Positions 4,973-45,212 of a stretch of 53,482 nt of DNA are shown one piece after another. This stretch comes from an uncultured Subdoligranulum sp. Lineage in GTDB: Bacteria; Bacillota; Clostridia; Oscillospirales; Ruminococcaceae. Numbering within the stretch: the stretch's first letter is position 1; each line of letters opens with the position of its first letter. Position numbers and translations under genes: made by a program. Under the pieces are notes generated by a model that saw nothing but the letters and a program-made list of their open reading frames with translations, ran no database searches and was not told where the DNA came from. The DNA lies in assembly GCA_904390925.1 (NCBI GenBank), contig CAJFMB010000008.1:1-53482 (forward strand), in the 5' to 3' direction.

Positions 4973-6757
4973 TCAATTTTTCTTTTTGGGGAAGTCGGCT
5001 GCATTTTTGCGCAGCTGGTCTTCCAGCCCCGGGCGGGGGGTGACGTAGACGGTGGTATACACCTCATACAGCACCATGCCGGGTTTGGCGCCGTTGGCCT
5101 TCCAGATGTTTTTGACCTCGGTGGTATCCACCGGGACCTTGGCACCGCCGTTCTGGCTGGAGTGCAGCACCGCCAGCTCGGCAGCCTCCTGCCGGGTGGT
5201 GTCGGGGATGTCCTGTCCCCCGCTCAGCACCACCGTGTGGCTGCCGGGGGCTTTCTGCACATGGAACCACAGGTCCTTGCCCCGGGCGGTGTGCAGCGTC
5301 AGCTTGTCGTTCTGGGTATTGTTGCGGCCCACCAGAATCTCGAACCCGTCACTGGACCGGTAGCGCAGGAAGTCGGCCGGTTTCTGCCGCTTGTCCCGCT
5401 GCTTGTAGTATTTCAGGTAGCCCTGACTTTTCAGCTCGGCGCGGATCTCGTTGAGTGCCGCCTCGCCGGGGGCGCTCTCCACCTCGTAGAGGACGGTGCC
5501 CAGATACTCGATCTCAGCCTCGCCCTCCACCAGCAGCTTTTTCAGCATCTCACCGGCGGTCTGCTTTTTCTTGTAATCCTTGAAGTATTTCTGGGCGTTC
5601 TCGTTGGGGCCAAGACGCGGGTCCAGCGGAATGGTCACATCCTCGCCGGTATAGTAATTCTGCACCGTGACCTGCCGGTCTCCCTTGTGCACCGCCCACT
5701 GGTTGGCCTGCAGCAACTCGCCGTACAGGCGCAGCCGGTCCGCCTTGGTGCTGGCGGCCTGCTCCTCCCGGCGGGCAGCCTGCTTGCGCACCGCACGCTC
5801 GTGCATGTTGTGCACCGCCTTGTAGAGCTCGCGGCTCTTCTGGCGCAGACGCTCGGCCCGGTCCTTGGTGGCGTAGTAGTCCTCCAGCATCTCGCTGTAG
5901 GTGGGATAGGTACTGATCTTTGCCGTGGAACCGTACTGCTGCGGCACAAAAAAGCTGAACTCGGTGGGCTTTTCGGTACCGTCCGCCCGGGGCAGCCGCA
6001 CCGCAGCGGGGGTGCCGCCGGCGGCGTGCTGTTCTTTCAGGGCATCGTAGGCAGCGGCCAGGGCGTTTTTCTGCATCTCGTCCAGCTCATTGGCCAGCAG
6101 GGCAGTCTCACCGCCGAAGGCCCGCCAGGCGATTTCCCGCATCACCACAGGGCCGACGCCGCCGATGCTCTTGGTCAGGGCATCCGCCGGGGGCAGGTCC
6201 CGACGGCAGGCCAGCGACACCGCCTGAGCGCCCGATACCGCAAGGAAATCCGGCTTGCCGGGTTTGGGCGGCAGCGTGTAGGGCAGGCCGGGCAGCAGCT
6301 GACGGATCTCGCTGTCCTCAAAGTCCACCCGCTTGAGGGCATCAATGATCTTTCCGTTCTGTACCAGAACCAGGTTGGAATACCGGCCCATCAGTTCGGC
6401 GGCCATGGTGTTGACCACCAGGTCCCCCATCTCGTTGGTGCAGCGGAAGTCAAAATAGACGATGCGGTCCCCCGGTTCCATGTGCAGCCCTACCAGCCGG
6501 CCGCCGGTCAGGTGCTTGCGCAGCAGCATGCAGAATCCCGGCGGGGTGGTGGGATTTTCAAAGCTTTCGTTGGTCAGGCAGACCCGGGCGGAACCGCTGC
6601 GGGCCGAGAGCAGCAACCGGAAAGTTTCGGTGCGGCTGCGCAGAAGCAGCAGTACCTCGTCCCGGGTGGGCTCAAAGATTTTGTCAATGCGGGCATCCAG
6701 CAGGCGGCTGTTCAGTTCCGCCGTCACCAGTGCCAGCGTTGCGGCGTCAAGCGCCAT
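4973..6757 (-). CDS. rqcH: RqcH (NFACT family), ribosome quality control Ala-tail factor
   Basis: A 594-residue member of the Rqc2/RqcH family, formerly called fibronectin-binding protein A. It binds obstructed 50S subunits and directs C-terminal alanine tailing that marks stalled peptides for degradation. The N-terminal NFACT-N domain starts MALDAATLALVTAELNSRL and includes the conserved SFENPTTPPGFCMLLRKHL. A coiled-coil middle region (about 280-410, rich in Arg, Lys and Glu) follows. The C-terminal NFACT-R domain carries GKDLWFHVQKAPGSHTVVL and ends in a Lys-rich tail. Length is normal for the family. It ends a four-gene minus-strand cluster 30 bases after the Nif3-like gene. The ribosome site AGGGGG lies upstream. 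Confidence 0.93.
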   Translation of the reverse strand: MALDAATLALVTAELNSRLLDARIDKIFEPTRDEVLLLLRSRTETFRLLLSARSGSARVCLTNESFENPTTPPGFCMLLRKHLTGGRLVGLHMEPGDRIVYFDFRCTNEMGDLVVNTMAAELMGRYSNLVLVQNGKIIDALKRVDFEDSEIRQLLPGLPYTLPPKPGKPDFLAVSGAQAVSLACRRDLPPADALTKSIGGVGPVVMREIAWRAFGGETALLANELDEMQKNALAAAYDALKEQHAAGGTPAAVRLPRADGTEKPTEFSFFVPQQYGSTAKISTYPTYSEMLEDYYATKDRAERLRQKSRELYKAVHNMHERAVRKQAARREEQAASTKADRLRLYGELLQANQWAVHKGDRQVTVQNYYTGEDVTIPLDPRLGPNENAQKYFKDYKKKQTAGEMLKKLLVEGEAEIEYLGTVLYEVESAPGEAALNEIRAELKSQGYLKYYKQRDKRQKPADFLRYRSSDGFEILVGRNNTQNDKLTLHTARGKDLWFHVQKAPGSHTVVLSGGQDIPDTTRQEAAELAVLHSSQNGGAKVPVDTTEVKNIWKANGAKPGMVLYEVYTTVYVTPRPGLEDQLRKNAADFPKKKN

Positions 6758-6787
6758 GGGGATTCCCCCTCTCGTTGGATTCGGAAC

Positions 6788-7534
6788 TTAAAAATAGGTA
6801 TACGGGTCCCGGTCGGTCTCGGCGGATTCCACCTTCAGGTCCGGGAACGCCTGGGCCAGGCGGTTTTTCAGCACCGCGGCAATGGGATGCTCGGTGCCCC
6901 AGTGTCCCGCCACCACCAGGCCGATGCCGCAGCGTTTGGCATCGCAGGCCACATGATGGCTGGCCTCGCCGGTGACCAGGCAGTCGGCACCCAGCTCCAG
7001 CGCCTCCTGCCAGTAGCTGCCGCCGCCACCGCTGACCTCCGCCACCCGGGTGACCGGATGATCCGCCTCCACGTAATGGACGCCGGGGCCCAGCGTGGTC
7101 TGGCAGAGCTTGGCCAGGTGGGCGGCGGTGGTCTCGTCCACCATGCCGATCCGCCCGCAGCCGTCGGCAAACACCTGGGTGTCCCGGATGCCCAGAATGT
7201 CGGCCAGCGTATCATTGACACCGCCCTCGGCGGCATCCAGATTGGTGTGCATGCAGATGGCGGAAATACCCTTGTGCATCAGCATGCCGGGCACGTCCTT
7301 GACCGACAGGGATTTGAGCGGCTGAAAAATCACCGGATGGTGGGAGACAATCAGTTCGCAGCCCAGGACATCAGCCTCCGATACCACGGCAGGGGTGATG
7401 TCCAGCGCGGTGAGAATCCCGCTGACCGGACGGCCCGCATCCACCAGCAGTCCGACGTTATCCCAGCTCTGGGCCAGTTCAGGCGGGGCGATACGGCGCA
7501 TCTCGGCCAGCACGTCCTGTACGGTTACGATCAT
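6788..7534 (-). CDS. Nif3-like dinuclear metal centre protein (YqfO family)
   Basis: A 248-residue member of the Nif3 family of hexameric proteins with two metals per subunit, sometimes annotated as GTP cyclohydrolase I type 2. Visible metal-ligand motifs are SHHPVIFQPL (two histidines), HTNLDAAEGGVND and GHWGTEHP near the C-terminus. The biochemical role is not settled in any bacterium. The start at 7534 (MIVTVQDVL) is preferred over the longer reading frame because GGGAGG lies seven bases upstream. It follows trmK, as in many Firmicutes, where the two are a conserved pair. Confidence 0.92.
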   Translation of the reverse strand: MIVTVQDVLAEMRRIAPPELAQSWDNVGLLVDAGRPVSGILTALDITPAVVSEADVLGCELIVSHHPVIFQPLKSLSVKDVPGMLMHKGISAICMHTNLDAAEGGVNDTLADILGIRDTQVFADGCGRIGMVDETTAAHLAKLCQTTLGPGVHYVEADHPVTRVAEVSGGGGSYWQEALELGADCLVTGEASHHVACDAKRCGIGLVVAGHWGTEHPIAAVLKNRLAQAFPDLKVESAETDRDPYTYF

Positions 7535-7591
7535 AAAAATACCTCCCATCCAGTATTTCTGTTGCATTGTTTTCCACCGGACAGTGTCCGC

Positions 7592-8269
7592 TTACGGCAG
7601 CGTTTCCAGCCTGCGCAGCAGTTGGTCCACCGCGTCGGCCTCAGGGCCGGGCGTCAGGCCCCGGCGGTACTTTTCCACCTTGGGGCGCTGCTGGGCCAGA
7701 TAGCCTCCAAAGCCCGGCTGGTCCTCTGTCAACCCGGTCAGGCAGAACCAGGCATCGGGGGTGCGGGCCTGTCCGTCAAACCTGGCATTGATGACGGTAT
7801 ACCAGCGCCCCGCCGCCTGACAGAGGGTCTCCCCCGCCAGCGCAAAACCCCGGCGGGCCAGCCCCAGCCGAAGCAGGCTGTGCTTGGTGGCCGGCACCAG
7901 AATCAGGTTATATTCCGGGCTGCGTACCCAGGGGGCGGCGTCCAGGATTTCCAGAATTGTCTCCGCCCCCATGCCGGCGATGATGATCTCGCTGGCCTCC
8001 CCGGGGGCAAGCACCGAAAGCCCACTGCCCAGCCGGCATTCCACCACGTCCGCCCAGGGCGCGCAGTTTTTTTCAGCTTTGGCCAGCGGGCCGGGGCGCA
8101 GATCGCATGCAAAAACACGCGGGCAGCGTTTGCTGCCCGCGAGCCACGCGCTGAGTTTGCCGTGATCACAGCCGATGTCCGCCGCCGGGCGGCCGGGCCG
8201 CACATAGGCGGCTGCAGCCGACAGCCGGGCGTCCAGACAGGGCGGCTGCGGATTACTGCTTCTTGGCAA
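7592..8269 (-). CDS. trmK: tRNA (adenine(22)-N1)-methyltransferase
   Basis: A 225-residue Rossmann-fold methyltransferase that makes m1A22 in tRNA using S-adenosylmethionine. The SAM-binding motif I is AADIGCDHGKLSAWL, typical of TrmK, and IIAGMGAETI matches the second signature. Family members usually begin just before the LDARLSA segment, so the start is short of upstream material. The best start is TTG at 8269, which overlaps the preceding DUF1858 gene by 17 bases and suggests translational coupling. Neighbours TrmK and Nif3-like are a common pair. Confidence 0.9.
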   Translation of the reverse strand: MPRSSNPQPPCLDARLSAAAAYVRPGRPAADIGCDHGKLSAWLAGSKRCPRVFACDLRPGPLAKAEKNCAPWADVVECRLGSGLSVLAPGEASEIIIAGMGAETILEILDAAPWVRSPEYNLILVPATKHSLLRLGLARRGFALAGETLCQAAGRWYTVINARFDGQARTPDAWFCLTGLTEDQPGFGGYLAQQRPKVEKYRRGLTPGPEADAVDQLLRRLETLP

Positions 8270-36293: not shown

Positions 36294-37466
36294 TCATCCG
36301 TCCGCCTGGCGGGAGACCGACAGCACAATGCCCATTTCTCCCAGCAGCATCATCAGGCTGGTGCCCCCGGACGAGAAGAACGGCAGGCTGATACCGGTAT
36401 TGGGGATGGTGTTGGTGACAACGGCGATGTTCAGAACCGCCTGCAGGATCACCTGTACCACAAAGCCCACCACCAGCAGGGCGCCGAACCGGTCCCGGGC
36501 CCGCACCGCCAGATACATGCCCCGCAACAACAGCAGCAGGAACAGCCCGATGACCACTGCCGCCCCCACAAAGCCAAGTTCCTCGCAGAGGATGGAAAAG
36601 ATAAAGTCGTTCTGCGGTTCGGGGACATAGAGGTATTTCTGGCGGCTGTTGCCCAGTCCCAGCCCTGCAATGCCGCCGGAAGCGATGGCATACAGGCTCT
36701 GGATGGTCTGGTGGCCCTCCCCCAGCGGGTCGGCAAACGGGTCCTGCCAGGAGGCCAGCCGGTCGGCGGCGTAGGGCACCAGTTCCGGCAAAAGAATCAC
36801 CGCAGCGGCAATGGCGGCCCCGGCCGCCGCCCCGGCCAGACCAAACCATTTCAGCCCGGTGCCCCCCACAAACATCAGCACCGCACCGATGCCCAGAATC
36901 AGCAGCGTGCCGGAAAGATGGGGTTCCAGAAGCATCAGCACCGTCACCACACCCAGAATCACTCCGAAGGGCAGCACACCGGTGGAAAAGGTCTTCATCC
37001 GGTCATGGTTTAAGGAAATGATGTGGGAAAAGACCAGCACCACCGAAAACTTGGCGATCTCGCTGGGTTGCAGGGTGCCAAGGCCGGGCAGCACGATCCA
37101 GCGTTTGCAGCCGTTGTATTCCGGCATGAAAAGTACCACCGTCAGAAGTACCAGCGACAGGCCCATCAGCGGCCAGGCCAGTTTGTGCCAGATATGGTAA
37201 TCCACCAGCGAAGCCAGATACATGGCCACCACCCCCAGTGCTGCAAACAGCAGCTGGGGGCGGATGTAGGTGAAGGCATCTCCCCGGCGATAGAGTGCCA
37301 CCGCATACCCGGCCGAGAAAAGCATCACCAGACCCAGCCCCACCAGCAACAGCAGAATGGCCAGAAACGGCAGGTCCAGCCCCGGCAGGCTGCGCACCCG
37401 CCGGCGCAGCGCAGACAGTCTGGTCCAGACGGTGCCCTTTTGGGCGCGGTAGACGGTTTTGTCCAT
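36294..37466 (-). CDS. ftsW: FtsW/RodA/SpoVE family peptidoglycan glycosyltransferase
   Basis: A 390-residue SEDS family protein that polymerises lipid II with a class B penicillin-binding protein. Hallmarks are PGLGTLQPSEIAKFSVVLVFSHI (about 155), the LEPHLSGTLLI loop with the catalytic aspartate region, YVPEPQNDFIFSILCEELGFVG (about 300) and NTGISLPFFSSGGTS near the C-terminus. About ten membrane segments. It could be FtsW (division), RodA or SpoVE (spore); YVPEPQNDFIF favours FtsW or SpoVE. The start at 37466 (MDKTVYRAQ) follows GGGGGAAAGG. No penicillin-binding protein lies beside it. Confidence 0.92.
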   Translation of the reverse strand: MDKTVYRAQKGTVWTRLSALRRRVRSLPGLDLPFLAILLLLVGLGLVMLFSAGYAVALYRRGDAFTYIRPQLLFAALGVVAMYLASLVDYHIWHKLAWPLMGLSLVLLTVVLFMPEYNGCKRWIVLPGLGTLQPSEIAKFSVVLVFSHIISLNHDRMKTFSTGVLPFGVILGVVTVLMLLEPHLSGTLLILGIGAVLMFVGGTGLKWFGLAGAAAGAAIAAAVILLPELVPYAADRLASWQDPFADPLGEGHQTIQSLYAIASGGIAGLGLGNSRQKYLYVPEPQNDFIFSILCEELGFVGAAVVIGLFLLLLLRGMYLAVRARDRFGALLVVGFVVQVILQAVLNIAVVTNTIPNTGISLPFFSSGGTSLMMLLGEMGIVLSVSRQADG

Positions 37467-37544
37467 CCGGCCTTTCCCCCTTTCCTGCAATCTCTGAGTA
37501 TTGTATGCGGAAAGGGCCGTGTTTAAACCTGGCCCGGCAGCAGC

Positions 37545-37577
37545 AAAAATCCGCCCTGTGCCGAAGCACAGGGCGGA
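37545..37577 (-). terminator. strong intrinsic terminator of the SpoIID operon
   Basis: TCCGCCCTGTGC (37550-37561) pairs with GCACAGGGCGGA (37566-37577) around a four-base loop, and five T residues follow on the minus strand. Confidence 0.9.
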
Positions 37578-37602
37578 CAGGTATAAATTCCGTTGAGAAC
37601 GA

Positions 37603-40600
37603 TCAGTAGGTGGTCAGGCTGGTACCGGGGTAATAGTGCTGCAAAATCTGCTGGTAGCTCCAGCCATTGTTTGCATAGCCCACCGCGCCCCACTGGCTCA
37701 TGCCGACGCCGTGGCCGTAGCCGTACACGTCAAAGATGAAGCAGTCGCTGGCAGAGTCATAGCTGACGGTAAAGCACTGGCTGCGCAGGCTGCGGCCGTC
37801 CACGCTCTGGCCGGCCAGCAGCGTTTCCCGGAACCAGCTGCCGCGGCAGGTGGTGTTGGGACCGCTGTCCGGGCCGATCTGCATCTGACTGACCCAGCCA
37901 TACTGGTTGGCGGACAGAATCTTGAACCAGCTGTTGGGGTCCACGCCGCTCAGGTCGATGCCCAGCACATCCTGAATACGCTGCTGCAGCGTAGCGCGGG
38001 AGAAACGTGCCGTGCCCGAGGTTGCGCCGTTGGTGTTCCAGTGGGAGGCAGTGCTCTGGTCATAGGGACTGTCCACCGCCTGCAGCCAGGCTCGGTCGCT
38101 GCCCCACACATCCGCCGCCGAAGCAGTACCGGTGGAGGCGGAGGCAAAATAGGGAGTAAAGCAGACATTGCCGCCGTAGGTCACCAGCACATGGGCAACC
38201 TCCTGTGCGGCGGCCAATGCCGCATCGCCGGGGGTTGTGCCGGCCACCGAAGGGTAGCCGCCCTGGCTGATAATCCAGCAGTGGGCCGCCACACACTGGG
38301 CCTTGTAGGCCTCGGCGGGGGCGCCGGGTCCCAGCTCATTCTGGGCGATCATGGCCAGGCAGGTCACCAGATCCAGCGTCTGCTGGCTGCCGTTCATCGT
38401 CACATTGATGGTCTCCCCTGCTGCGGAGCTTCCGCCGGAAGATTCCGGTGCCGGAGTCGCCTGTGCGGCAGGCTGGGAGTTGTCCGTGCCGCCGGAAGAT
38501 TCCGGCGCCGGGGTGGGTGTCGGGGCCGGGGTGGGATTTGCGGATGCGATCTGCTCCACCGAGATTTCCTGCTCCGGCAGGGTGCCCTCAGCGCCCTGGT
38601 GCACGTCACTCTCGGCGGCGCCCTCCTCCCCTGCCTTGTCGGTCAGACCTGCCAGCAGCTTGTCCACGTCGGTCATCAGCTGGTTGGTCTGTGCCTGCAG
38701 GTCGGCAATGTTCTGGTCCAGCGCCTGGGTATCCACGCCGGTGGGCGCGGCAGGCTGGTCCTTGCCCTCGTTGCCGGAGCTTTCCTCTGCCGACTCGGGG
38801 GACGCCGTACCCGTCGACGCACAGGCCGAAAGGTACCATTCCAGCTGGTCCCCCAAAAGTGCTCCCACATCCGGCATCTGGTCACCGTCGGTACCGTAGC
38901 GCACGGCGGGAAGCAGCGGGTCGCTGTTCAGTTCCACCTGTCCCGCGGAGAGTTCCCCGCTGCCGGAGGTGGCCAGGCGGCCGGTGACGCAAAGGCGCAC
39001 CCCGTCATTGCCCGGCTCCGAAGCCAGCGTCAGGAAACCGGCATGGTCGGTCATGGAAAGGTCCACATCCGCCAGCGACCGGGCACGGGCACCCAGCACA
39101 AAATTCAGATATTCGCTGTACTCGGTCAGCGGACGGCCGGATACGTCAAAGGCACCTGCGCCGGTCTCGTTGGGGTCCTGGTAGTAGACAGCCAGTACCT
39201 CGTAGCGGTAGCTGGTATCAGCAAGGTAAAGGGTAAAGCCGGTGTTTTCCCGCAGGGTGGTCAGGTCAGCCAGCACATCCAGCGATTCGTCGTTCATTTC
39301 CAGCAGAGTGTTGGCGGGATATTCGCTGCCCAGATAGCTGGTGCCGGACACGGCAGGCCCGTCGGGGGCCTCCTCGCCGGATGCGCCGGACAGGTAAACC
39401 AGTTTGCCCTCCATGCCGGGGAAGGCCAGGTATCCTGCCACATCGGCATCCCGTCCTGCGGCCTCGGCCAGATACTCGGTCACCGCGCTGTCAAACTGAG
39501 CGGTACCGTAACCGTCAGCCGACGGTGCGGGATTGGAATGGATATTGAGGAAATAGAACAGGGCGCCTGCCAGCGCCAGAATCACCACCAGGAAGCCGAC
39601 AAAAACCGCCGTCATGGCCATGCTCTGGCGGCGCTCGTTGCGCAGTACCCGGGCAAGGCTGCGGCTCTGACCCAGGTCCATGGCCGGCATGGCTTCCGCC
39701 GTGCTGTTTTCCTTTTTCCGGGACACCCGGGTGGTCCGCCGGGCCGGAGCAGAAGCTTTGCGGGCGGGCTGCTCGTCGGAGAGATGCTCCACCGCATCGC
39801 GGAAGTCCTCCAGCGAGGTGGGCGGCGACTGGTCATCCGCCTGCTGGGCGGCACGGACTGCTTCCGGGTCCAGGCCGCTGGTCAGATCCGGCACATCGTC
39901 GTCCAGAATCGAGCGAGGTGGTTGGGAACGGGTGGCGGTTCCGGTATCCCGCTGGATGCGGGTCAGACGCCGTCCGCCGCTGCGGGCCGCACGGTAATCG
40001 GCAGCCGCCTTGGCACCGTTGGTGGCAAAATCCAGCGGCGCGGCAGCCTGGGGGGGATCGGCGTTTTCAAATGTAATGGAGCCCTTGGGACTGTTGCTGT
40101 TCCAGCTTTGCTCGGCTGCCGCATGGGCCGCAGCCGCCACATCGGCGGCGTTGTCCGGTACCGGGCGGGCAGGGCGCGCGGTGTCGGTCTGCGTGTCCTG
40201 CTGGGGATTGTCCTCGCCCATGGAGGCGGCAACCGCAGCGGCGGCGGCATCCTGCATCATCGACTTGGGAATGGCCGCCGTGTCAAAGTCCAGCATCGGC
40301 TCAAAGGAGGAACGTCCGCCTGAACGGCGCCGGCGCAGCGAGAACCGGGTGGTATCGCCGCGGGTCTGTCCGGCGCGGGAGACCAGCAGCAGCGGATGCT
40401 CGTGTCCGGGATGGAACTGGATGGTGCCGGAGGTGAATTTCAGGCCCAGGGTACGCCGCCGCACCAGGTCCAGAATGTTGTTGGCAATGGCGGCATCGGT
40501 CAGGTCCGGGCGCAGCGCACAGGCCACAGCCCCTTTCCGGTCGCAGATCAGCACAAAGGGTGCCTGCCCCACCGTGGCCGGCATGTAGACGGCGGCGATG

Positions 40601-41115
40601 TCCGCCTCGCCCACATCCATGGCCTGCTGGGCGCGGCCTGCCGCCGCCTGCACCACATCGCCCGGGAATTTTTTCAGAAGCTGGGGCGGCGTGACGATGT
40701 CGCGGGAGACAATGGGATCGGCATAGCTGTGTGTGCCGAAATCAAACACTGCCTCGCCGTGTTCCAGCGGCCGCAGCAGATCCCCCAGCAGCCGGCCGGT
40801 GGTTTCATCGGTGGCCACCAGCAGACGCCGCTTTTGCAGCAGGGCATCCAGTGTGGCCTGGGCCAGGCTCGTCTCGCCGGTGGCGTAGACGGCATCGCCA
40901 AAGCGGGCGGCCAGTTTCTGCGCCCACTTGTCACAGTGGGCATCCGCCATGGCCTGGGTGGGGGCCGAAGCCTGCACGCAGACGGCAAACTCGCCGTCCC
41001 GTTCCAGCAGGCGCAGACCGGTGCAGCCGTCCGCCTGCGCCTGGCGCAGGATGGCGGTTACCTCGGCCGAAGTCAGGCCGAACACGCGCAGGATGCGCAG
41101 CTGTGTCGACACCAT
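37603..41115 (-). CDS. giant chimeric SpoIID/LytB protein with CinA-like and sortase-like domains
   Basis: A 1170-residue membrane-anchored protein. Its order is: residues 1-225, cytoplasmic, resembling the CinA C-terminal half but lacking the catalytic serine (VATDETTGRLL against ATAESCTGGLV); 240-495, disordered, Pro/Asp/Arg-rich; 501-524, one membrane helix; 530-715, resembling class B sortase without the usual His and Cys (FLTLASEPGNDGVRLCVTGRL); 765-898, acidic coiled coil and PTPAPTPTP linker; 900-1170, SpoIID/LytB domain with the hallmark GYGHGVGMSQWGAVGYA and YQQILQHYYPGT. SpoIID enzymes cut denuded peptidoglycan glycan. It ends a transcript with cinA, thiI and a desulfurase. Start: GGAGG 8 bases upstream. 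Confidence 0.88.
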   Translation of the reverse strand: MVSTQLRILRVFGLTSAEVTAILRQAQADGCTGLRLLERDGEFAVCVQASAPTQAMADAHCDKWAQKLAARFGDAVYATGETSLAQATLDALLQKRRLLVATDETTGRLLGDLLRPLEHGEAVFDFGTHSYADPIVSRDIVTPPQLLKKFPGDVVQAAAGRAQQAMDVGEADIAAVYMPATVGQAPFVLICDRKGAVACALRPDLTDAAIANNILDLVRRRTLGLKFTSGTIQFHPGHEHPLLLVSRAGQTRGDTTRFSLRRRRSGGRSSFEPMLDFDTAAIPKSMMQDAAAAAVAASMGEDNPQQDTQTDTARPARPVPDNAADVAAAAHAAAEQSWNSNSPKGSITFENADPPQAAAPLDFATNGAKAAADYRAARSGGRRLTRIQRDTGTATRSQPPRSILDDDVPDLTSGLDPEAVRAAQQADDQSPPTSLEDFRDAVEHLSDEQPARKASAPARRTTRVSRKKENSTAEAMPAMDLGQSRSLARVLRNERRQSMAMTAVFVGFLVVILALAGALFYFLNIHSNPAPSADGYGTAQFDSAVTEYLAEAAGRDADVAGYLAFPGMEGKLVYLSGASGEEAPDGPAVSGTSYLGSEYPANTLLEMNDESLDVLADLTTLRENTGFTLYLADTSYRYEVLAVYYQDPNETGAGAFDVSGRPLTEYSEYLNFVLGARARSLADVDLSMTDHAGFLTLASEPGNDGVRLCVTGRLATSGSGELSAGQVELNSDPLLPAVRYGTDGDQMPDVGALLGDQLEWYLSACASTGTASPESAEESSGNEGKDQPAAPTGVDTQALDQNIADLQAQTNQLMTDVDKLLAGLTDKAGEEGAAESDVHQGAEGTLPEQEISVEQIASANPTPAPTPTPAPESSGGTDNSQPAAQATPAPESSGGSSAAGETINVTMNGSQQTLDLVTCLAMIAQNELGPGAPAEAYKAQCVAAHCWIISQGGYPSVAGTTPGDAALAAAQEVAHVLVTYGGNVCFTPYFASASTGTASAADVWGSDRAWLQAVDSPYDQSTASHWNTNGATSGTARFSRATLQQRIQDVLGIDLSGVDPNSWFKILSANQYGWVSQMQIGPDSGPNTTCRGSWFRETLLAGQSVDGRSLRSQCFTVSYDSASDCFIFDVYGYGHGVGMSQWGAVGYANNGWSYQQILQHYYPGTSLTTY

Positions 41116-42515: not shown

Positions 42516-43709
42516 TTACAGTTCCGGGTCGTCGCCGATGCGGATGCGGATCTTCTCCACATTGGCGGCAGCCTCGGCTTCCAGTTCGGCCAGGCCGGGC
42601 ATACCTGCCTCCGCCTCCTCGATCTCGGCCAGCGTCGGCCGGGTCTTGGGATGGGCGGGGGTGAAGATGGTGCAGCAATCCTCGTAGGGTTCAATGGAGG
42701 TCTCAAAGGTGCCGATCTCCCGGGATTTGGCAATGATCTCGGTCTTGTCCATGCCAATCAGGGGGCGCAGCACCGGCAGGCGCTGGGCGGAATCGGTGCA
42801 GGCCAGCGCCGCCAGCGTCTGGCTGGCCACCTGGGCTAGGCTTTCGCCGGTGATCAGCGCCTGCATATCCGAGGTGGCGGCCACACGCTCGGCAATGCGC
42901 AGCATGCTACGGCGCATCAGCACCGTGAACAGCACATCGGGAGCGTTGTCCCGGATGTATTCCTGGGGTTTGGTGTAGGGCACCACAAACAGCATGCAGT
43001 TGCCGGTGTACTCGCTGACCTCCCGGGCCAGCGCCACCACCTTGAGCTTGGCACGCAGGCTGGTGTAGGGCGGCGAGGCAAAATGAATGTGATGCAGCGC
43101 CAGGCCGCGGCGGGCCATATACCAGGCCGCCACCGGGCTGTCGATGCCGCCGGACAGCAGGTTCAGTGCCCGGCCGCTGGTGCCCACCGGCAGGCCGCCG
43201 GCGCCGGGGAACTTGGGCCCGTGGATGTAGGCGCCGAAGTCCCGGATCTCCACCATGACCTCCAGCTGGGGGTTGTGCACGTCCACCCGAAGGTAGGGAT
43301 GTTTGGACAGCAGGAAGGCCCCCAGTTCCCGGCAGAGTTCCGGGCTTTTCATCGGGAAGGTCTTGTCCGAGCGCTTGGCCTCCACCTTGAAGGTCTTGAC
43401 CCCGCGCAGCACCTGGCCCAGGTACTCCTCGGCCACCTGGCAGATGGTATCAAAGTCCTTTTCGCAGACGGCGGCACGGCTGAGCCGGGCAATGCCGAAC
43501 ACCTTGGACACCCGGCGGAAGGCCTCGTCCATGTCGATGTCCTCGTCCTGGGGCTGGATGTACAGGGTGCTCTGGGCCATGCGGAGTTTGAACTCGCCCA
43601 GGTCCTCCAGGCGGTGGCGGACCTCCTTGATCAGCTTGGCTTCAAAGGTGCCGCGGTTCAGGCCCTTGAGGGCCATTTCGCCCTGGAAGGCCATGATGAT
43701 TTCTCTCAT
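42516..43709 (-). CDS. thiI: tRNA 4-thiouridine synthase / thiamine sulfur transfer ThiI, short form
   Basis: A 397-residue ThiI, which makes 4-thiouridine at position 8 of tRNA. The N-terminal ferredoxin-like and THUMP domains (1-165) precede the PP-loop LNLLSGGIDSPVAAWYMARRG near residue 180 that adenylates the uridine. It ends with the catalytic-cysteine segment EDCCTIFTPAHPKTRP, without the C-terminal rhodanese domain of E. coli ThiI, which is typical for Firmicutes where the cysteine desulfurase hands over sulfur directly. That desulfurase is encoded just upstream. The ribosome site before 43709 is weak (AAGG). Confidence 0.96.
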   Translation of the reverse strand: MREIIMAFQGEMALKGLNRGTFEAKLIKEVRHRLEDLGEFKLRMAQSTLYIQPQDEDIDMDEAFRRVSKVFGIARLSRAAVCEKDFDTICQVAEEYLGQVLRGVKTFKVEAKRSDKTFPMKSPELCRELGAFLLSKHPYLRVDVHNPQLEVMVEIRDFGAYIHGPKFPGAGGLPVGTSGRALNLLSGGIDSPVAAWYMARRGLALHHIHFASPPYTSLRAKLKVVALAREVSEYTGNCMLFVVPYTKPQEYIRDNAPDVLFTVLMRRSMLRIAERVAATSDMQALITGESLAQVASQTLAALACTDSAQRLPVLRPLIGMDKTEIIAKSREIGTFETSIEPYEDCCTIFTPAHPKTRPTLAEIEEAEAGMPGLAELEAEAAANVEKIRIRIGDDPEL

Positions 43710-43780
43710 GTGTTTCAACCTTTTCTTTGTAGTTTCTGTGCGGAAAAGTTTCTGGGCAGGGCCGGAAACCGGCCGCAAAG

Positions 43781-43809
43781 TCTGATACAAAATGTATTAT
43801 TTTATCAGA
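43781..43809 (-). promoter_or_regulatory. inverted repeat in the desulfurase-thiI gap
   Basis: TCTGATA (43781-43787) and TATCAGA (43803-43809) are perfect arms around an AT-rich loop, in the 159-base gap. A possible promoter overlaps but is not convincing, so thiI may be read from the desulfurase promoter. Confidence 0.4.
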
Positions 43810-43868: not shown

Positions 43869-45026
43869 TCAGATATGCTGCAGCTCGGTCAGGCCGCTCT
43901 TCAAACCGGCCAGCAGGGCATCCACATCGCCCTCGTCATTGTCGGCGCAGAAGCTGACCCGCAAAGCGGTGGCCACTGCCCTGTCCTCGCAGCCCATGGC
44001 CATCAGGGTGTGGCTGGGCTCCCCCTTGTCGCAGGCGCTGCCGCCGGAGACATAAATCCGGCGATCGCTCAGGTAGGTGATAAAGGTCTGGCTGTTGACG
44101 CAGTTGGTGGAGAAGTTGAGCACCTCCGGCACCGCGTCATCGGGGGAATGGATGGTGATGCCCGGCAGCTGAGCCAGCCCCTCCCGCAGGCGGGCATTGA
44201 GGGCGGCCGCATGGCAGGCATTGGCTTTCAGCTTTTTGGCGCCCTGCTCGGCGGCCAGTCCCAGACCCACGGCGTAGGGCAGATTTTCGGTACCGGGACG
44301 GATGCCCCGCTCCTGGTGGCCACCCAGATAGGCTGGCTGCAGGTGCTGGCGCTGGTTGTCGCAGAGATACAGCGCGCCGATGCCCTTGGGGGCATGGACC
44401 TTGTGGCCGGAGACCGACAGCGTATCCACGCCGCGCAGTTTTTTCAGATCCAGCGGAATCCGCAGCCAGGCCTGCACCGCATCAATATGTACGGCGGTAC
44501 GGCTGTTTTTTTCTTTGACCTCTGCCGCCAGACGGGCAATGTCCTGCACGGCGCCGGTCTCGTTGTTGACCGCCATGCAGGCCACCAGAACCGTGTTTTT
44601 GTCCACCGCGTCGATCAGCTTGCCCACATCCAGACGGCCGTCGGCTTCGGGAAGGATCTCCACCACGGTAAAGCCCCGGTCCTTCAGCGCCCGGATAGGA
44701 CGCTGGACACTGGGGTGCTCGAACCCGGTGGTGACAATCTTGTTGCCCCAGGTCTGCCGCGGAATGGCCGCGCCCAGAATGGCCAGGTTGTTGCTCTCGC
44801 TTCCGCAGGCGGTGAAATAGATCTCATCCCGGGCGCAGTTCAGCGTTTTGGCAATTCTGCCGCGGGCCACCGACAGCTGATGCTCGGCCAGGATGGCCGG
44901 CTCGTACAGGCTGGAAGGATTGGCCCAGCAGTTGCGCATGGCGTCATTGATGACATCGGCCACCGCCGGGTCCACCATGGTGGTGGCGGCGTTGTCCAGG
45001 TAGTGCAGATTGGGGTCGGTTCGCAT
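43869..45026 (-). CDS. cysteine desulfurase (NifS/IscS-like)
   Basis: A 385-residue PLP enzyme that takes sulfur from cysteine as an enzyme persulfide. Motifs: YLDNAATTMVDPAV near the start, TTGFEHPSVQRP with the PLP-binding His, SGHKVHAPKGIGALYLCD with the PLP lysine near 200, and RIYVSGGSACDKGEPSH with the catalytic cysteine near 325. It is co-oriented with thiI and fits the NifZ-ThiI pair of Firmicutes that makes 4-thiouridine. The start at 45026 (MRTDPN) is one of two near starts. Confidence 0.94.
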   Translation of the reverse strand: MRTDPNLHYLDNAATTMVDPAVADVINDAMRNCWANPSSLYEPAILAEHQLSVARGRIAKTLNCARDEIYFTACGSESNNLAILGAAIPRQTWGNKIVTTGFEHPSVQRPIRALKDRGFTVVEILPEADGRLDVGKLIDAVDKNTVLVACMAVNNETGAVQDIARLAAEVKEKNSRTAVHIDAVQAWLRIPLDLKKLRGVDTLSVSGHKVHAPKGIGALYLCDNQRQHLQPAYLGGHQERGIRPGTENLPYAVGLGLAAEQGAKKLKANACHAAALNARLREGLAQLPGITIHSPDDAVPEVLNFSTNCVNSQTFITYLSDRRIYVSGGSACDKGEPSHTLMAMGCEDRAVATALRVSFCADNDEGDVDALLAGLKSGLTELQHI

Positions 45027-45134
45027 GATGGTAAAAGCCTCGTTTGAAATAAAGTCAGGAGAACGGCACCGGTGAAAATCCACCGCTGCGGTTCTCTGCG
45101 GTATGCCGCAATTTGACATACCGATACAGGGTAA

Positions 45135-45175
45135 ATTATAGCACGCCCCGGCGCCTGTGTACAAGCGCCGGGGCG
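45135..45175 (-). promoter_or_regulatory. promoter of the desulfurase operon overlapped by a GC palindrome
   Basis: On the minus strand TTGTAC (45159-45164), 18 bases, then TATAAT (45135-45140) with an extended TG upstream. A perfect 11-base inverted repeat, CGCCCCGGCGC (45144-45154) and GCGCCGGGGCG (45165-45175), spans the spacer and -35 box. It could be an operator or the terminator stem of the aldo/keto reductase gene placed inside the next promoter. Confidence 0.6.
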
Positions 45176-45212
45176 AAAAAATCATGGAATTGTTGTGTCA
45201 GGGCCAAAAAGG

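Follow-up and report, generated by a model that had tools for sequence, protein, structure and literature searches.

A predicted membrane protein of Gemmiger-type bacteria with apparently inactive CinA and class B sortase domains and a SpoIID domain

CinA proteins, named after competence and damage, are widely conserved and linked to the salvage of nicotinamide adenine dinucleotide (NAD), and SpoIID-family domains are presumed to cut glycan strands. The Agrobacterium CinA variants S31A, K63A and Y58A have undetectable activity (PMC5384747); the KH and nicotinamide mononucleotide (NMN) deamidase domains of Thermus CinA are described as paired by two-fold symmetry (PMC4246079), and CinA is noted to be on occasion fused to other domains (PMC3855486). 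Here we analyze a gene that lies directly downstream of an intact cinA on a 53,482-nucleotide stretch of DNA from an uncultured Subdoligranulum sp. (contig CAJFMB010000008.1, the whole stretch being referred to below as the window), a genome whose nearest relatives are Gemmiger. An initial annotation of this DNA had proposed that the N-terminal part of the encoded SpoIID protein is a degenerate copy of the C-terminal half of the neighboring CinA.

Profile, profile-profile and structural comparisons bear out the relationship to CinA. NCBIfam models match the fusion protein at both ends (CinA NF001813 and SpoIID_LytB), positions 179-349 of NF001813 aligning with residues 5-174 at E 7e-12 (45 bits, under the model cut-off of 379), and CinA_KH (PF18146) aligns with residues 7-78 at E 0.001 (19.6 bits, under the gathering score of 27). 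A Pfam scan of the window's fusion protein finds no match to PF02464 (CinA); some relatives' copies pass its cut-off of 23.5 (29.9 bits in G004, 27.2 bits in G006). A search with the fusion protein as query brings up the CinA of the window (E 4e-9, 31% identity). When a profile built from 32 Gemmiger copies is aligned by hhalign to one of four intact CinA fusions, the probability is 98.9 (E 1.7e-17, columns 7-226), and the same 32-copy profile matches Streptococcus mutans CinA (6mr3) by sequence at E 3.1e-10. An AlphaFold model computed from Gemmiger rows alone, with a predicted local distance difference test score (pLDDT) of 89.5 and a predicted template modeling score (pTM) of 0.86, has 6mr3 as its top Foldseek match (E 1e-14, TM 0.74) and Thermus CinA as its next; 20 of the 21 matches at E <= 0.001 are CinA-type, and the fold recovered is thus that of CinA and not an unrelated one. 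The remaining match, 3lou, is unrelated (TM 0.21). These sequence profiles and the predicted structure confirm that residues 5-225 derive from the KH and NMN-deamidase C-terminal half of CinA. The span of both domains is as first described, with the match beginning nearer residue 5 than residue 30, and the example pairs offered at the time (RFGDAVYATGE with RLGDAAYDVDV, VATDETTGRLL with ATAESCTGGLV) align residue by residue as claimed.

The alignment places E104 at the catalytic serine and V136 at the lysine of the window's CinA-like domain, retains the tyrosine as Y131 and lacks the TGxAGP loop. The loss of the serine, already recognized in the initial annotation, extends to all 31 named Gemmiger loci, which were collected by scanning genome contigs with genus-derived patterns (one is named Oscillospiraceae bacterium and one Subdoligranulum); six sister-genus fusions (L140, L142-L146) likewise lack the serine in their aligned rows. 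Among the 31 loci the TGxAGP loop is missing from every one, the lysine is replaced in 24, and the tyrosine equivalent is retained in 23, with tryptophan in the other eight. The COG1058 domain, seat of the adenosine diphosphate ribose (ADP-ribose) site, is absent from the fusion protein. By its sequence the domain appears non-enzymatic, as had been supposed.

A second relic, overlooked in the earlier work, lies beyond the membrane helix: residues ~536-730 are, by profiles and a structural model, a degenerate and apparently dead class B sortase. The stretch gives an hhalign probability of 97.0, its profile has Clostridioides difficile SrtB as its best solved-structure match (E 1.2e-6), and its AlphaFold model (pLDDT 89.7) retrieves the SrtB structures of C. 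difficile, B. anthracis and S. aureus in Foldseek, from E 2.6e-9, with TM 0.58 to 4ux7. For the sortase models TIGR03064 and PF04203, no match to the window's fusion protein is listed with E 1 as the limit. In the window the His loop is deleted, the Cys is replaced by E700 and the Arg is retained as R707; the His loop and the Cys are lost in all ten Gemmiger-group rows aligned. Antibody heavy-chain entries that also match the profile (positions ~95-137) are judged to be chance, because all 50 fold-search matches listed are sortases. The single membrane helix agrees with the proposal of a membrane-anchored protein; its N-terminal side is basic, and we infer an orientation with the N-terminus inside and the C-terminus outside. 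Another hydropathy peak, at residues 173-191, falls where the model of the CinA-like fold predicts strands and was taken as a false membrane stretch.

The C-terminal domain scores 106 bits against TIGR02669 (SpoIID_LytB, residues 920-1168), above the cut-off of 83.3, matches PDB 4rwr at E 1.2e-19, and reaches 15.6 bits against Pfam SpoIID PF08486, under the cut-off of 23. Its presumed catalytic Glu, E927, is invariant across 11 Gemmiger rows and lines up with the EM glutamate of 4rwr and 5i1t, in aligned stretches that score only 1.4 and 4.4 bits. Against the sporulation SpoIID equivalog TIGR02870 the fusion protein scores 97.2 bits, under the cut-off of 234.75. Gemmiger, for which budding is reported, is regarded as asporogenous, whence the domain was expected to act outside sporulation; we dropped this expectation on finding matches to the SpoIIP and SpoIVA models in all five Gemmiger genomes tried (G000, G004, G006, G008, G026), and from these matches the fusion protein may have a sporulation role. 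Elsewhere in the window's genome a second SpoIID-like gene (L002, 732-2018) scores 214.6 bits against TIGR02870, also under the cut-off.

The N-terminal domain is present in all 35 genomes of the window's genus at 62% identity or more (61 genomes searched), and the 31 Gemmiger loci share 62-90% identity with the window across 238 residues. Domain and SpoIID lie in one frame in 27 of these loci, the remaining four ending at a sequence edge, and the gene is found in the type strain Gemmiger formicilis ATCC 27749 (L093). A profile search adds 13 genomes from six more genera of the family, where the domain sits in frames of 585-1088 amino acids, and a fourteenth Gemmiger-like genome, G376, where it stands at a contig end. 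Seven of the 13 were inspected at locus level together with G376; in six of the seven, the degenerate CinA half (hereafter pseudo-CinA), the membrane helix, the pseudo-sortase and SpoIID form a single chain, and the seventh, L140, is cut after the pseudo-sortase. Five short forms from two genera (L135, L136, L137, L138, L139) consist of pseudo-CinA and one membrane helix in 316-362 amino acids, directly downstream of CinA, and neither sortase nor SpoIID is found in the stretches examined around them. In all 45 loci examined, the pseudo-CinA gene directly follows a CinA gene that retains Ser and Lys; the Gemmiger-like genomes of other genera enter them as a chosen part (7 of 13). L150, excluded from the count by a score rule, has an intact CinA upstream as well. 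In the genus of L146 (5820-6341) the separate CinA is a 173-residue deamidase domain with ESLTGG, and so is that of G428.

Elsewhere in the family, CinA is joined through one membrane helix to sortase B and in some cases also to SpoIID. Four intact fusions exceed the Pfam cut-offs for CinA and Sortase within one chain, and L056 exceeds those for class B sortase and SpoIID_LytB. The sortase retains His, Cys and Arg in two groups of chains, one in which CinA retains the ESCT motif (L034 at 5373-8231, L052-L055, L057, L069, L070 and L155, the last with the TLSTC motif alone read in the sortase) and one in which CinA is without it (L056, L058-L068, L071); several chains carry SpoIID as well, the single CinA-helix-sortase-SpoIID chains L056, L058, L060, L062 and L063 among those without ESCT. 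G035, of the same family, has a full CinA-helix-sortase protein of 952 amino acids and, after it, SpoIID as a gene of its own. At least 45 of 247 sampled family genomes have a match that runs unbroken in one frame from KH through to the sortase, counted by hand as matches with a first position <=40, a last position >=520 and no stops. Across the order, 24 of 295 genomes match at E 1e-80 or better, some through CinA alone or sortase alone, and across the class 2 of 341, both within the order, at a threshold that would miss more diverged fusions. In the 34 examined CinA-sortase fusion loci with no intervening CinA gene, thiI is directly upstream in 33 (the other, L151, is without upstream sequence) and nifS precedes thiI in 30. 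CinA and sortase B are separate adjacent genes in L040, L113, L114, L115 and L116, a plausible starting point of the fusion.

Several members of this wider set depart from the common layout. Two sortase fusions, L120 (1536-4901) and L121 (2566-5412), keep a MoCF/COG1058-like domain (above the Pfam cut-off in L120, slightly under it in L121) while little of KH-PncC is left, so that CinA has decayed here in another way. L122 (1829-4969) is one chain in which an intact CinA is followed by a sortase that lacks His, Cys and Arg and by a SpoIID that groups apart from that of Gemmiger. L071 (4570-8412) carries four matches to Big_2 immunoglobulin-like domains.

The first of two KH-PncC trees (73 rows, including 14 of the 32 Gemmiger rows) does not join the pseudo-CinA domains with the stand-alone CinA of Gemmiger; neither does the second, with intermediates and six Gemmiger rows, from which ten fused and eleven other loci were omitted as long or redundant, and in which all pseudo-CinA form one clade (98/99). 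Tandem duplication of the local CinA as the origin has p 0.392 in the approximately unbiased (AU) test and is not rejected. That a duplication took place, as first proposed, is likely, CinA and its dead copy being adjacent in 45 of 45 loci; which CinA was the source is not told by the domain tree. The companion idea, that a CinA fragment joined SpoIID after a local duplication, is not supported by the family-wide CinA-helix-sortase chains, some with SpoIID, or by trees that place Gemmiger with intact-CinA chains: L147 and L154, from one genus, are single chains in which CinA is whole and intact, the sortase dead and SpoIID present, and the Gemmiger group joins them in the sortase tree (100/99) and in the SpoIID tree (95/98), each with four Gemmiger rows. 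On the basis of the sortase and SpoIID trees, not of the CinA tree, the sequence of events was probably fusion first, sortase death next, and then a second CinA gene together with the death of the fused CinA. A separate clade (99/83) holds the ESCT-less fusions from other genera, and we infer from this that CinA decay within fusions occurred at least twice.

The state of the fused CinA goes with the presence of another CinA in the same genome. Where the fused CinA has ESCT, a second CinA is absent in 17 of 17 genomes (13/13, and 4/4 in G366, G524, G542 and G440); where ESCT is missing, a second CinA of 154-183 bits is present in 14 of 15, with motifs intact in all four second copies read (L103, L105, L107, L108). 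The 15 ESCT-less fused copies have all lost the phosphate-binding Tyr; six have lost the Ser and nine keep it, and the Lys is mostly kept. The Gemmiger-type genomes G004, G006, G351, G346 and G428 all have a second CinA. G405 and G332, with sortase fusions lacking the deamidase part by Pfam and a separate CinA, were excluded from these counts. A Fisher test on genomes without a second CinA (13/13 versus 1/15) gives p 7.5e-7, a value that ignores the kinship among the genomes and is indicative only. The motifs of the fused CinA are thus lost only where another CinA exists, with one exception.

The CinA-like domains themselves are conserved to different degrees than the sortase. We took median Nei-Gojobori ratios of nonsynonymous to synonymous substitution (dN/dS) over 27 full-length Gemmiger fusions, the window's included, and over 32 stand-alone CinA proteins. 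In the fusions the ratio is 0.20 for the KH-like, 0.31 for the PncC-like and 0.21 for the SpoIID domain, against 0.49 for the dead sortase, 0.50 (residues 260-480) and 0.68 for the linkers and 0.57 for the membrane stretch; the three domains of stand-alone CinA give 0.16, 0.275 and 0.226, that of KH being 0.275. Since 0.20 and 0.31 compare with 0.16-0.275, the dead CinA evolves under purifying selection and is constrained almost like its stand-alone counterpart; the dead sortase is not.

To the explanation that best gathers these observations we give about an even chance: the Gemmiger protein would be the end product of a family-wide lineage of fusions, and its pseudo-CinA a cytoplasmic dimerization or docking module. 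As the sequences show, CinA is joined in that lineage through one membrane helix to an outer sortase B, in some members with SpoIID, at the same site following thiI; in the Gemmiger group the sortase has lost its His and Cys and the CinA part its Ser, with a CinA gene bearing Ser and Lys directly upstream. The dead CinA would then serve the membrane protein as a non-enzymatic module, its KH-PncC fold presumably retained for a dimer or docking surface, and the outer SpoIID domain would be a putative glycan-strand-cutting enzyme. Because the five short forms persist beside CinA without SpoIID or sortase, the pseudo-CinA is suggested to do its work on the cytoplasmic face of the membrane. As to the partner, on which we are less sure, the adjacent CinA would be the most economical candidate, because CinA pairs via these same domains; the pseudo-CinA would keep CinA at the membrane, much as the ancestral single chain did. 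The fuller version of this idea is possible, if on balance unlikely: the dead CinA would be a receptor at the membrane, to which the adjacent CinA is drawn by forming a heterodimer with it, and NAD metabolism would then take place at the site of wall remodeling.

Several observations weigh against this account. A mirror-tree comparison does not point to CinA in particular as the partner, the partial correlation with the CinA C-terminal half being 0.35 for pseudo-CinA and 0.43 for SpoIID, and the adjacency of CinA and pseudo-CinA may have been inherited with the operon rather than selected. The Lys is retained in 7 of the 31 Gemmiger copies (L087, L088, L089, L091, L093, L095, L102), the type strain's among them. 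The complementarity count is uncorrected for kinship and rests on about two independent losses; its exception, G358, has a fused CinA without ESCT yet no second CinA, and several of the genomes that lack a second copy are only 64-84% complete (G364 64%, G524 67%, G349 78%, also G440 and G035). As for the order of events, the pseudo-CinA clade stands on a long stem in the KH-PncC tree, where four placements each have an AU p of ~0.4; in the sortase tree, rows that are dead and evolve fast may be drawn together; the bootstrap of the SpoIID tree is not settled; and L147 and L154 could reflect a later re-fusion of CinA.

The competing explanation that survives best, though we hold it to be unlikely, is a purely structural scaffold: the domain would homodimerize and so bring two SpoIID domains together across the membrane, and it would have neither a ligand nor any further partner. 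The two-fold pairing of KH and deamidase domains in CinA (PMC4246079) and a fold kept while the active site was lost both suit it; it leaves unexplained the adjacency of CinA in 45 of 45 loci and the survival, in five loci, of pseudo-CinA with a membrane helix and no SpoIID. Less probable still is a cytoplasmic sensor of a nucleotide or NAD metabolite that signals to the outer wall enzyme. The retained CinA fold, the purifying selection, the Lys of 7 of 31 copies and the retention of the equivalent of the phosphate-binding Tyr58/Tyr296 (Y131 in the window; 23 of 31 loci) would agree with sensing, but none of the 31 loci has the Ser, which is essential in the Agrobacterium enzyme (PMC5384747), or the TGxAGP loop, the protein has no COG1058 domain, the Tyr has become Trp in 8 of 31, and the five short forms have no wall domain as a target for a signal. 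These losses, with that of the Lys in the window and 24 of 31 loci, likewise speak against the sensing of NMN or ADP-ribose that was put forward initially. That the CinA part is a functionless relic on its way out is very unlikely, since, for all that it is one step in a gradual series of decaying forms, with a sortase part evolving at linker speed (dN/dS 0.49) and fused CinA domains of another clade also eroding, its KH-like dN/dS of 0.20 is below the 0.275 of stand-alone CinA KH, identity across the 31 Gemmiger loci is 62-90% over 238 residues, and all 35 genomes of the genus have it in an open frame.

The genes around the fusion are listed with its parts in Table 1. The fusion's ATG start codon lies 59 bases past the cinA stop, preceded by a GGAGG that resembles a ribosome-binding site, and a weaker hairpin lies between the two genes. 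Because the fusion gene ends in a strong terminator-like hairpin and a site resembling a promoter stands near the start of the desulfurase frame, nifS, thiI, cinA and the fusion gene may form one transcription unit beginning at that site. Downstream of the hairpin, at 36294-37490, is a SEDS-family gene (FtsW/RodA/SpoVE type) that scores under the NCBIfam cut-offs of the models listed.

Table 1. The fusion gene, its parts and neighboring features in the window.
Feature	Position	Strand	Basis or remarks
Fusion gene	37603..41115	-	single open frame, 1170 aa
Fusion layout, N- to C-terminus			apparently dead CinA C-terminal half, linker, membrane helix, apparently dead sortase, linker, SpoIID
KH-like domain of CinA, residues 1-80	40876..41115	-	CinA_KH E 0.001; AlphaFold/Foldseek; dN/dS 0.20
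Degenerate NMN-deamidase (PncC) domain, residues 81-225	40441..40875	-	alignments; dN/dS 0.31
Linker, residues 226-500	39616..40440	-	poorly conserved in alignment; presumably cytoplasmic
Membrane helix, residues 501-523	39547..39615	-	hydropathy scan (496-528)
Degenerate class B sortase, residues 536-730	38926..39510	-	hhalign; SrtB profile match; AlphaFold/Foldseek
SpoIID/LytB domain, residues 905-1170	37606..38403	-	TIGR02669; PDB 4rwr match
Stand-alone cinA, intact, 435 aa	41175..42482	-	NF001813 466.9 bits (cut-off 379); AESCTGG and YAEGAK motifs
thiI	42516..43790	-	TIGR00342 above cut-off; conserved neighborhood (synteny)
NifS/IscS-like cysteine desulfurase	43869..45185	-	Aminotran_5 E 1e-70; conserved neighborhood (synteny)
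Promoter-like site near desulfurase frame start	45135..45163	-	consensus match alone; 4 such sites in region, 1.8 expected
Terminator-like hairpin 3' of fusion gene, before SEDS gene	37549..37578	-	13-pair stem, then TTTTT

That many genera of one gut family have CinA fused across the membrane to a sortase and to a domain associated with the wall is a strong hint of a role for CinA in the cell envelope. On the same tentative reading as that of the dead CinA as a receptor, a NAD-salvage enzyme in the Oscillospirales would have been turned into part of a cell-envelope machine, with CinA inside and sortase B, SpoIID or both outside. The series from neighboring genes to a single chain, to loss of the sortase and then of CinA documents with unusual completeness how enzymes in nature become non-enzymes, and since Gemmiger formicilis ATCC 27749, a type strain in culture, has the gene, it is open to testing. 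The individual domains are known; among the open-access literature matches listed, judged by titles and abstract openings, we find neither a CinA-sortase nor a CinA-SpoIID fusion, and so neither the CinA-sortase-SpoIID chain nor its pseudoenzyme descendants.

Compared with described proteins, the window's gene product is familiar in each of its parts. Its outer domain passes TIGR02669, as SpoIID/SpoIID-LytB proteins do, and a Glu aligns, in low-scoring stretches, with that of 4rwr and 5i1t; against the sporulation equivalog it stays far under the cut-off (97.2 against 234.75 bits). Residues 531-750 have the fold of C. difficile SrtB (TIGR03064) and match its profile, but the Gemmiger group is without the His loop and the Cys; the fused relatives elsewhere in the family, unlike the Gemmiger group, retain His, Cys and Arg. 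E. coli YfaY and YdeJ are likewise CinA domains without deamidase activity that occur alongside an active one, according to PMC3855486; there they belong to a class of one- or two-domain proteins, and the word sortase is absent from the text. With the CinA of Thermus thermophilus and Streptococcus mutans the window's domain has the KH and deamidase fold and sequence homology in common, whereas COG1058, Ser, Lys and the TGxAGP loop are gone and a membrane helix and outer domains have been joined to what remains.

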